Assembly (NCBI GenBank): GCA_025929855.1
Contig: JAICPK010000005.1
Location: 1 to 15,036, forward strand
Source: Nitrososphaera sp.
Lineage (GTDB): Archaea > Thermoproteota > Nitrososphaeria > Nitrososphaerales > Nitrososphaeraceae
Reading direction: 5' to 3'
Length of the DNA stretch: 15,036 bases
The notes under the pieces are model-generated. The model saw only the letters and a list, made by a program, of their open reading frames with translations. It was not told where the DNA came from and searched no databases. The translations under genes were made by a program, and so were the position numbers. Shown piece by piece: positions 3,883 through 9,817 of the stretch (its first letter is position 1; each line of letters starts with the position of its first letter).

Positions 3883-4446
3883 CTAACCCTCATAGATCAT
3901 TAGGTTCTTCTCTTCCAATAGTGTGTGTAGGTTATGCACAGCTCGATATACTTCACTTTCTTTCTTCGCACCTGTACACACCAGCTTGCCGGATGCAAAC
4001 AGCAGTATGACAGTCTTGGGATCCAGCATTCTGTGAATAAGACCCGGGAACTGCTCGGGCTCATACATACTCCTCGGCAGCACTCTTGCGGCAAGCTCTA
4101 AGTGGATCTTACCTCCAAGGCTTGCCGATGCCACTATATTTTGGATCTCGATCTGGGGTTCATGCTCAAGGGGTATTCCTCCCTTTTTAAGCTTCAAAAC
4201 AACGCTCTTGACAGCCTGAATTGCCATCTTTTCAGACTTGGCGCCTGTGCAGACCATCTTGCCAGAGCTAAATATCAAAGTCGCAGTCTTAGGTGATCTC
4301 AGCCTAAAAACCAAGCCGGGGAACTGATCAGGATGATATTCCACATCTGGAAATATCTGAGTAATTAGGTTGAGGTTGACAGTCTGGTTCACTGTAGCAG
4401 AAGCTACCACATTCTCAATGCTTACAATTGGCTTGGTCTGCGGCAT
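3883..4446 (-). CDS. tbp: TATA-box-binding protein
   Basis: A 187-residue archaeal TBP, the general factor that bends promoter DNA and recruits TFB and RNA polymerase. Two direct repeats form the saddle: about residues 6-90 and 97-180. Each contains FPGL followed by a hydrophobic strand and SGK-V-TGAK (SGKMVCTGAK 61-70, SGKLVCTGAK 152-161). The four phenylalanines expected to intercalate into the minor groove are present at 42, 59, 133 and 150. Tyr in the usual 'FPGLIYRM' of repeat 2 is His here (FPGLIHRM, His138). The start is ATG 4446. The promoter is unusual: a 10-bp TA run at 4467-4476 about 26 bp upstream, followed by a perfect palindrome reaching almost to the start codon, which suggests regulation. 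Confidence 0.97.
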   Translation of the reverse strand: MPQTKPIVSIENVVASATVNQTVNLNLITQIFPDVEYHPDQFPGLVFRLRSPKTATLIFSSGKMVCTGAKSEKMAIQAVKSVVLKLKKGGIPLEHEPQIEIQNIVASASLGGKIHLELAARVLPRSMYEPEQFPGLIHRMLDPKTVILLFASGKLVCTGAKKESEVYRAVHNLHTLLEEKNLMIYEG

Positions 4447-4448
4447 AT

Positions 4449-4466
4449 GCGCCTTTATAAAGGCGC
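4449..4466. promoter_or_regulatory. perfect 18-bp palindrome (candidate operator) in the tbp promoter
   Basis: GCGCCTTTATAAAGGCGC is a perfect inverted repeat ending 3 bp before the tbp start codon and directly abutting the TATA run. Its core TTTATAAA is itself TATA-like. The position covers the expected transcription start, where a bound protein would block initiation. It could bind a repressor or TBP itself (autoregulation). As RNA it could form a hairpin only if transcription starts upstream of it. Confidence 0.6.
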
Positions 4467-4476
4467 TATATATATA
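4467..4476 (-). promoter_or_regulatory. TATA box of tbp
   Basis: An uninterrupted TATATATATA run is centred about 26 bp before the tbp ATG. It is the strongest TATA element in the window and predicts a leaderless mRNA. Confidence 0.7.
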
Positions 4477-4487
4477 CCTGCTTGCTA

Positions 4488-4578: not shown

Positions 4579-4995
4579 CTATTCGCCGATTATCTTTATT
4601 AGCACTCGCTTTTGTCGCTTGCCATCAAACTCGCCATAAAATATTTGCTCCCATGGCCCAAAATCAAGCTTGCCTTTTGTTATTGCTACTACCACCTCGC
4701 GCCCCATTATCTGTCGCTTCAGATGAGCATCAGCGTTATCCTCGCCTGTACAATTGTGCATATAGCTTTCCGGGGAATAGGGCACAAGCTTCTCCAGCCA
4801 TCTATCAAAATCCTGATGCAAGCCGCTTTCATCATCATTGATAAAGACGCTAGCAGAGATGTGCATTGCATTGACAAGACAGAGGCCCTCTTTGATGTCA
4901 CTTTCTGTCACTATATTTGCAACCTGTGGTGTGATATTAATAAATGCACGCCGAGTTGACGTGTTAAATATAAGGTATTCAGTCTTGGACTTCAT
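4579..4995 (-). CDS. YjbQ/UPF0047-family protein (secondary thiamine-phosphate synthase-type)
   Basis: A 138-residue protein of the widespread YjbQ (UPF0047) family. Hallmarks are the His-rich block [19 protein letters not shown] (45-63), [12 protein letters not shown] (87-98) and the C-terminal [20 protein letters not shown] run starting at 108, which together build the conserved pocket. E. coli YjbQ has weak thiamine-phosphate synthase activity, but the physiological reaction of the family is not settled. The ATG (4993-4995) overlaps the signal peptidase TGA as ATGA, so the two genes are an operon with coupled translation. No purine-rich ribosome-binding site is visible before it, which fits re-initiation. 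Length is normal for the family. Confidence 0.92.
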
Positions 4996-8570: not shown

Positions 8571-8600
8571 AATTGTCGACTGATATACTTGTACGTGGGT

Positions 8601-8610
8601 CTTTATATTG
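8601..8610 (-). promoter_or_regulatory. TATA box of rnhB
   Basis: On the minus strand CAATATAAAG is centred about 36 bp before the TTG start, giving a leader of roughly 10 bases. AAGTATATCA at 8581-8590 is too close to serve as the TATA box. Confidence 0.4.
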
Positions 8611-8650
8611 TTGCTTATGTTTACAAAACGAGAATGCCGTTTTTTCTGCT

Positions 8651-8660
8651 GTTATAAATA
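8651..8660 (+). promoter_or_regulatory. TATA box of trm1, fixing its start
   Basis: GTTATAAATA is close to the archaeal consensus and is centred 28 bp before the ATG at 8684. It lies inside the longer upstream open frame (from 8573), so that longer frame is not transcribed from this promoter. Confidence 0.65.
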
Positions 8661-8683
8661 GCGTGCTATTGCAGAGCTGTAAT

Positions 8684-9817
8684 ATGGCAGAATTTGTTAG
8701 GACGGTTGAGGGTAGAACGATACTTATGGTTCCAAAATCCTCACTTACCGCCAAAGTTCCTTCGAAGATGCCTGCTTTCTTCAATCCTGCTGCAAAGCTT
8801 AACCGCGACCTCTCGATACTGGCCTACAGTGCTTTTGTAGCATCATCTGGAAAAAAGACATTTGCAGATTCGTTCGCCGGTATTGGGGCACGCGCTCTTA
8901 GGGTTGCAGTCGAGGTCCCGGAAGTAGAGCAGGTTTACTGCAATGATATTAACTCTGTTGCAATAGAAGCTGCTAAAGAGGCCGCTGCGCTTAATTCTGT
9001 AACCGGCCGCTGCCATTTCTCAATTGAGGAGGTATGCAAGTTCCTTCTAAAAGGCGACAAGGACGGTGACCGCTATTCTATAGTTGACCTAGACCCTTTC
9101 GGAACTCCCGCTAGGCATGTAGACTGTGTACTGCGGTCTGTACTCGATGGCGGGCTTGTCTCGATAACTGCGACAGATACCGCAGTCTTGTGGGGCATTT
9201 ACCCTAAGGTGTGTCTGCGCCGCTATTATGGAAGGCCGCTCAACAATAGCTATGGCAATGAAACTGCGATCCGGCTGCTGCTTTCACTGACCGCGTTGAC
9301 CGCCTCAAGGCTTGAACTTGCGATCAAACCAGTATTTGTACATGCCACGAAGCACTACCTTCGTGTCTATGCGAAGGTATCAGTCAGCAGCAGTCAAGCA
9401 AATGAGGTTTATAACAGCATCAGCTATGTGATGCACTGCTTTCAGTGCGGCCACCGTTTCAATACTAAAGAATATGGAAAGGGTAAATGCGAGCTGTGCA
9501 ATACCGGCTTGGCTGTCGCAGGCCAGCTGTGGACAGGGTCACTGTATGACAAAGAATTTGTTAAGAAAATGTTAGAGCAAGACCCAGATAGACAGTGCAA
9601 AAAGGTGCTGGAAGCGGCCTTAGAAGAAGCAAGCGAAATACCTTATTATTTCCGGGCTGATGAAATTTCATCAAAGCTCAAATCAAACACACATTCAGTG
9701 CAAAGGATAATTGAAAAGCTGCATGCAGCCGGCTTCGTCGCGTCAAAGACTGCACTGAATACTAGCGCATTCAAGACAGACGCAAGGATCAACTCGATTC
9801 TTGATGTCGTGAGCTAG
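8684..9817 (+). CDS. trm1: tRNA (guanine26-N2)-dimethyltransferase Trm1
   Basis: A 377-residue enzyme that uses SAM to methylate G26 of tRNA at N2, once or twice. The start is ATG 8684, from TATA spacing and from MAEFVRTVEGRTILMVP matching the family N-terminus; the frame is open back to 8573, which would add 37 Cys-rich residues that look non-coding. Landmarks are FFNPAAKLNRDLS (32-44), SAM motif I DSFAGIGARALR (62-73), CNDIN (86-90), the catalytic DLDPFGTP (135-142), a zinc finger with Cys252, 255, 269 and 272, and a C-terminal FKTDA (363-367). Its TAG forms a CTAG shared with the TAG of the convergent membrane-anchored protein gene. Confidence 0.95.
   Translation: MAEFVRTVEGRTILMVPKSSLTAKVPSKMPAFFNPAAKLNRDLSILAYSAFVASSGKKTFADSFAGIGARALRVAVEVPEVEQVYCNDINSVAIEAAKEAAALNSVTGRCHFSIEEVCKFLLKGDKDGDRYSIVDLDPFGTPARHVDCVLRSVLDGGLVSITATDTAVLWGIYPKVCLRRYYGRPLNNSYGNETAIRLLLSLTALTASRLELAIKPVFVHATKHYLRVYAKVSVSSSQANEVYNSISYVMHCFQCGHRFNTKEYGKGKCELCNTGLAVAGQLWTGSLYDKEFVKKMLEQDPDRQCKKVLEAALEEASEIPYYFRADEISSKLKSNTHSVQRIIEKLHAAGFVASKTALNTSAFKTDARINSILDVVS

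Follow-up and report, generated by a model that had tools for sequence, protein, structure and literature searches.

The DNA analysed, referred to here as the window, is a stretch of 15,036 nucleotides from a Nitrososphaera sp. contig (JAICPK010000005.1), and the feature under study lies immediately upstream of its tbp gene. This gene (3883 to 4446, minus strand) encodes a TATA-box-binding protein (TBP) of 187 aa and was identified by a PF00352 match (E 9.7e-58); ten NCBIfam TATA-box-binding-protein models match it as well, all below their own curated cut-offs. The start codon occupies 4444 to 4446 on the minus strand (CAT on the plus strand, hence ATG from 4446 to 4444) and full-length family matches start at the corresponding position. 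Reading of the sequence upstream of it confirmed an 18-bp perfect palindrome, GCGCCTTTATAAAGGCGC, at 4449 to 4466, as well as a 10-bp TA run, TATATATATA, which directly adjoins the palindrome at 4467 to 4476. Both had been described in the original prediction, where the palindrome was placed 3 bp from the ATG; the actual gap is 2 bp (4447 to 4448). The palindrome consists of the self-complementary TATA core TTTATAAA (4454 to 4461, centred 11.5 bp upstream of the ATG and hereafter called site 2) and of GC-rich 5-bp arms, and its centre is indeed TATA-like as first noticed. The TA run, hereafter site 1, is read on the minus strand as the presumed productive TATA box, with its centre 25.5 bp upstream of the ATG and with a BRE-like flank, CAAGCAGG, at 4477 to 4484 of the same strand. 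Farther upstream, and given here for context only, a yjbQ/UPF0047 gene (4579 to 4995, PF01894 and TIGR00149) lies on the same strand as tbp, 132 bp upstream of its start.

From a TATA run whose centre is 25.5 bp ahead of the ATG, RNA would be expected to start at or next to the ATG, which would put the palindrome at about -20 to -3; the palindrome had been thought to cover the expected start, and this would then be slightly off. The palindrome is the longest perfect one in the window. Its length by itself is only mildly unusual, since 0.077 palindromes of at least 18 bp are expected per 15 kb (300 first-order random sequences of the same make-up), so that of the improbability first claimed it is the placement that counts. 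Control genes from three related genomes have a perfect palindrome of 16 bp or longer in the 60 bp upstream of 0/244, 0/90 and 1/77 genes, and 13 of 170 tbp upstream regions carry one, several of the 13 being AT-only. A second palindrome of the window, TGATGAAATTTCATCA, is 16 bp long, perfect, and located at 9658 to 9673 within the ORF 8573 to 9817.

A pair of TATA-like boxes upstream of tbp

A tbp gene was found in 62 of the 70 family genomes and in 286 of the 300 class genomes. The family set comprises 59 upstream regions from 58 genomes (G049 twice), four of the 62 genomes (G020, G032, G033 and G059) being left out as their matches have no N-terminus. In G049, tbp is present twice on separate contigs (G049:C179 and G049:C275; L062 and L030), both copies having the same tandem boxes, as a result of duplication or of a mixed assembly. 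The class set comprises 124 upstream regions picked non-randomly among the matches listed, and 111 of them were used for the geometry counts; in the other 13 (f16, f17, f21 and part of f19) the match does not start at the start codon. For the phylum, 46 of 51 genomes were used (L196, L214, L216, L217 and L219, without N-terminus, as well as second copies, were left out). As control genes we took ORFs no shorter than 120 aa that have a gap of 60 bp or more, read from their first start: 244 from 400 kb of the congeneric genome G027, 90 from G161 and 77 from G136, and control counts are given in this order throughout.

A pair was defined as two TWTAWAWA sites that lie within 80 bp of the start, 12 to 17 bp apart, and that together deviate from the motif by no more than one mismatch. 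Such a pair is found in 59/59 family (f1) and 96/124 class upstream regions. By family, it is present in all upstream regions of f3 (6/6), f16 (4/4), f18 (4/4) and f20 (5/5), as well as of f11 (2/2) and f5 (1/1); it is partial in f2 (8/21), f17 (3/6), f4 (2/5) and f9 (2/3), and is found in 0/8 of f6, f10, f12, f19, f21 and f22 combined. Strict TWTAWAWA pairs, 11 to 19 bp apart and within the same 80 bp, occur in 65/124 class upstream regions. Most f2 genomes have several tbp paralogues (L079, L081, L082, L090, L091, L093-L099 and L101); many of their best-matching tbp genes are without a second good box, and a single TTTTATTATA stands about 24 to 27 bp upstream in 11/21 upstream regions.

On sequence comparison, the conserved unit is the palindrome core TTTATAAA, one of two TATA-like boxes. 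Indeed, among related tbp upstream regions, whose alignment had been proposed as a check, the full palindrome is missing in half of the closest relatives and the core is kept: TTTATAAA is present in 13 of the 14 upstream regions of the genus (g1) and persists across six genera. The 34 loci of these six family genera share one plan, namely an A-rich flank, TATATATA, 5 to 9 bases, TTTATAAA, 6 to 16 bases and the start codon; their box starts are 13 to 17 bp apart, with 5 to 9 bp between the two 8-bp boxes. The remaining family genera have different TATA variants and spacings, and outside the genus the core becomes TTTATATA or TTTAAATA in other genera, as is seen for TATA boxes. In other Thermoproteota a pair with at most one mismatch occurs in 13/46 tbp upstream regions, and among 80 named tbp loci, whose listing from one contig scan includes no euryarchaeal record, in 22, many of them Bathyarchaeota records; neither count has control genes from the same genomes, and no phylum-wide claim is made for the pair. 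Palindromic or near-palindromic TATA-like boxes just before tbp were also seen in other Thermoproteota families, at L182 (CCCCTTTATAAAGAGGGG), L208, L205, L193 and L197.

The position of the boxes was next considered. In G027 the control genes have their main peak of TATA-like 8-mers 25 to 33 bp upstream of starts, in G136 at 25 to 27 bp, and in G161 such sites are few; RNA starts near the start codon would give peaks of this kind. The tbp sites peak at 10 to 18, 25 to 30 and 37 to 39 bp (99 dereplicated class upstream regions). At 10 to 15 bp there are 3 sites in the 244, none in the 90 and 3 in the 77 control genes, and 2 in 30 upstream regions of Alba; a site at 10 to 20 bp by itself is found in 13/244, 0/90 and 11/77 control genes. 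Sites at 10 to 20 and 22 to 33 bp occur jointly in 68/111 class tbp upstream regions, including 44/59 of f1, 7/21 of f2 and 1/3 of f9, with 0/6 in f10, f11, f12, f19 and f22 combined and 0/1 in f6; the control counts for this arrangement are 1/244, 0/90 and 3/77. TATA-like 8-mers at 10 to 20 bp before tbp are also seen in further families, TTTATAAA is centred there in all 34 loci having TATATATA together with TTTATAAA, and three-site ladders are found in f3 (6/6) and f18 (4/4). The site at 10 to 20 bp is absent in 15 of the 59 family upstream regions (9/14 of g5, 5/5 of g10 and 1/1 of g8) and in 5/5 of f4, and in these groups the extra box is mostly upstream, 34 to 42 bp from the start.

Specificity for tbp and the flanks of the boxes

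In the control genes the pair was found in 2/244 (one of which is tbp), 0/90 and 2/77, and the strict pair in 1/244 (tbp), 0/90 and 0/77. Allowing any early start left the number of genes with tandem sites unchanged, both in the strict test and at 11 to 22 bp with at most one mismatch. Orthologous controls were drawn from 31 family genomes each, read from any possible start: the pair occurs in 0/30 Alba loci and in 5/29 TFB loci (30 read, one without a usable start), all five being one conserved tfb gene. Furthermore, 70 family genomes were scanned for the pattern GTATATATA-N3-9-TTTATAAA, also written GTATATATAN{3,9}TTTATAAA. It gave 39 matches in 37 genomes, of which 34 stand directly before tbp in the correct direction, and the reversed pattern, used as a control, gave 3. 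The other five comprise one in G002, in reverse inside the tbp promoter, one in G032 on a contig other than that bearing the tbp match, and those of G005, G013 and G059 away from tbp, the G013 match preceding the conserved tfb gene. Together, these comparisons support a second TATA-like site beside the tbp TATA box as a conserved, nearly tbp-specific feature: a TBP-type site overlaps the tbp promoter, and its downstream place is the one kept in the 44 family upstream regions counted above.

The conserved tfb gene itself is preceded, about 85 bp before its start, by two or three TATA-like boxes (L345, L346, L352, L356, L357, L358 and L359-L364; also L227), the best pairs being 16 to 19 bp apart. 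L358 is the same tfb gene, with a start that differs by one base, and is not counted here; of the other loci, 7/11 have a pair at up to one mismatch in total and 11/11 at up to two; the corresponding G027 control counts are 2/244 (one being tbp) and 13/244.

The two boxes differ in their flanks. A BRE-like motif, A[AG]CA or AA[AG]A, which was chosen after inspection of site 1 and of the Alba promoters, is found within 9 nt upstream of site 1 in 31/34 loci, while within 9 nt beside site 2 it is found in 0/34, on either strand. The Alba promoters carry AACATTATAT in 15/30 loci, and at the TATA-like sites of G027 control genes the motif is present in 18/48 at 24 to 33 bp and in 7/31 farther upstream. 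Site 1 therefore resembles a normal promoter, by its 25.5-bp centre within the control peak of 25 to 33 bp and by its flank, bearing in mind that the flank motif was chosen after inspection, and site 2 resembles a TATA box that would be unable to direct TFB.

Proposed function of the second box

The palindrome is best explained as the downstream member of a tandem TATA pair in the tbp promoter. What was observed is the pair itself, how it is spaced, conserved and nearly confined to tbp, and the difference between the flanks. Our leading reading, which we hold to be about as likely as not, is that TBP may keep down its own gene by occupying a TATA box that lacks a BRE at the place where the polymerase must load. 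Site 1, TATATATATA with its A-rich BRE-like flank, would load TBP, TFB and RNA polymerase and would drive a tbp mRNA with little or no leader. Site 2, TTTATAAA between GC-rich flanks and without a BRE-like flank, lies about 14 bp downstream of site 1, before the start, and would also be occupied when free TBP is in excess. TBP at site 2 would then get in the way both of TFB, where this makes contacts on the downstream side of site 1, and of the polymerase as it loads. With only 5 to 9 bp between the boxes, site 2 filled by TBP and site 1 filled by the complex of TBP, TFB and polymerase would be expected to be mutually exclusive states, so that surplus TBP would lower its own synthesis; tbp transcription would fall, giving a negative feedback on the TBP level. 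Repression of tbp by TBP had been suggested at the outset, and the second TATA-like site, conserved and nearly tbp-specific, fits it, the repression itself being our deduction.

Several points weaken this reading. In 15 of the 59 family upstream regions the downstream place does not hold the extra box; where it lies upstream, TBP on it could perhaps cover the BRE of the productive box, which is a guess. Moreover, according to the accessible part of PMC4041446, DNA bending by the TBP of S. acidocaldarius requires TFB and a BRE contact, although the M. jannaschii protein can do without the BRE. A requirement of the S. acidocaldarius kind might leave a BRE-less site empty, which counts against repression. 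To these points come the families outside f1 in which few or none of the upstream regions combine a 10 to 20 bp with a 22 to 33 bp site, the lone 10 to 20 bp sites of 13/244 and 11/77 control genes, which are not so rare, and the BRE-like motif, picked after inspection and present at only 18/48 of the G027 control sites.

A tentative extension is that of a TATA ladder, by which Nitrososphaeria might set the TBP level through extra TATA boxes spread over the tbp promoter in steps of about 13 to 15 bp, BRE-less where examined and filled only at TBP excess. It would form a homeostat without a dedicated regulator, and with a similar pair guarding the conserved tfb gene, both DNA-binding basal factors might sense their own level through surplus boxes.

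Alternative explanations

Because TBP is required for making TBP, the extra TATA box could instead act as an antenna that raises local TBP and keeps tbp expressed under TBP scarcity, a positive-feedback safeguard predicting the opposite sign from repression. Extra sites both upstream and downstream of the box at about -26 would suit it, and the eukaryotic model of positive TBP autoregulation, in the part of PMC2928763 accessible, has a second, zero-expression state; but site 2 stands, in 34 loci, where the polymerase must load and without a BRE-like flank, and we regard this safeguard as unlikely.

Quite unlikely, in our judgement, is that the TTTATAAA-centred dyad would be bound not by TBP but by another regulator, one that recognises a specific sequence and perhaps acts as a dimer. 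Such a regulator would account for the covariation of the arms within the genus, where 44/60 pairs match compared to a shuffle mean of 37.6 (P 0.009), or 49/72 compared to 39.8 when six positions are taken (P 0.0025), both for 12 distinct arm pairs and uncorrected for relatedness. It would also suit the 24-bp perfect palindrome of L002, ATAGCGCCTTTATAAAGGCGCTAT, the longest among the 170 tbp upstream regions. However, the GC-rich arms are not constant: perfect palindromes of 16 to 24 bp occur in 7 of the 14 genus upstream regions, with three kinds of arms, and the arm sequences differ between groups. A conserved dimer operator, as the original prediction allowed, is thus improbable and was rejected as the conserved unit, its half-sites being variable and imperfect in the other seven. 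The core moreover turns into TTTATATA or TTTAAATA in other genera, as a TATA box would, and a search of the assembly (1.0 Mb, 65% complete) that allowed up to 3 mismatches found no second genomic copy. On the tbp gene tree, perfect palindromes appear at three places, two of them neighbouring and with several nodes weak. Template-switch perfection of a quasi-palindrome is conceivable and would explain different perfect arms by group; it says nothing on the core. In g5, a different perfect palindrome, GAGTATTTAAATACTC, is present at the second TATA in 1/14 upstream regions (L041, about 15 to 30 bp upstream of tbp).

The two boxes might also be ordinary alternative promoters, each TATA with its own start, and in f4, where they lie at 25 to 29 and 36 to 41 bp, both could yield useful starts. 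But assuming a start about 26 bp from the box centre, a site at 10 to 20 bp would make the RNA begin some 6 to 16 bases inside the gene, without the conserved start codon. This holds for 34/34 loci having TATATATA and TTTATAAA, with f4, g8, g10 and the greater part of g5 as exceptions, and makes the reading very unlikely overall. A role of site 2 in the melting of a strong promoter, or as its proximal element, in place of a role in TBP binding, seems highly improbable: the site overlaps the region that the polymerase should open, and 13/244 and 11/77 control genes have a TATA-like 8-mer at 10 to 20 bp, but such sites are few at 10 to 15 bp in the controls and in Alba, and the GC-rich 3' arm lies within the region to be melted. 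An RNA hairpin in the tbp leader is hardly plausible either, in spite of a good fold (70 nt, -20.4 kcal/mol, z -2.64) and the arm covariation, as RNA that starts at or close to the ATG would not include the palindrome and the arms are imperfect in half of the genus upstream regions; as Rfam gave no match at gathering scores anywhere in the window and the palindrome is probably untranscribed, an RNA element was rejected.

Relation to known systems

The tbp promoter is like the archaeal core promoter (BRE and TATA, with the start about 25 bp downstream) in the A-rich flank of site 1 and in its distance to the start codon; it differs by the second, BRE-less TATA 13 to 17 bp downstream in 34 family loci (elsewhere the extra box is upstream), an arrangement rare outside tbp. 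Autorepression through operators overlapping an archaeal promoter is a known arrangement. Site 2 of tbp likewise falls between TATA box and start, a place at which a bound protein would prevent initiation, but the candidate repressor here is the general factor TBP and the putative operator a TATA box.

For Haloferax volcanii TBP2, the accessible part of PMC4895103 suggests an autoregulatory drop of the tbp transcript, reasoned from the promoter TATA box; more TBP with less tbp transcript resembles our proposal, whereas that part describes no second TATA box or mechanism. In the accessible part of the work on Halobacterium TBP and TFB genes (PMC2121645), nothing on tbp autoregulation was found. 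The model of a repeated-TATA ancestral promoter, as far as set out in the accessible part of PMC4802759, predicts that multiple TATA boxes should be selected against in archaeal promoters. It shares with tbp the tandem TATA boxes bound by TBP, such binding being presumed here, but at tbp the repeat is kept, against that expectation. No description of tandem TATA boxes or of TBP autorepression at an archaeal tbp promoter was found in titles and abstract starts of the open-access literature among the matches listed, a body from which subscription journals are mostly absent.

To the question by what means the TBP level is set in archaea, whose promoters depend on this factor, a conserved, nearly tbp-specific second TATA box would offer a concrete and easily tested answer in which no dedicated regulator is needed. 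It would also make tbp a natural case of archaeal tandem TATA boxes, where the published model, in the part of PMC4802759 cited above, expects counter-selection.
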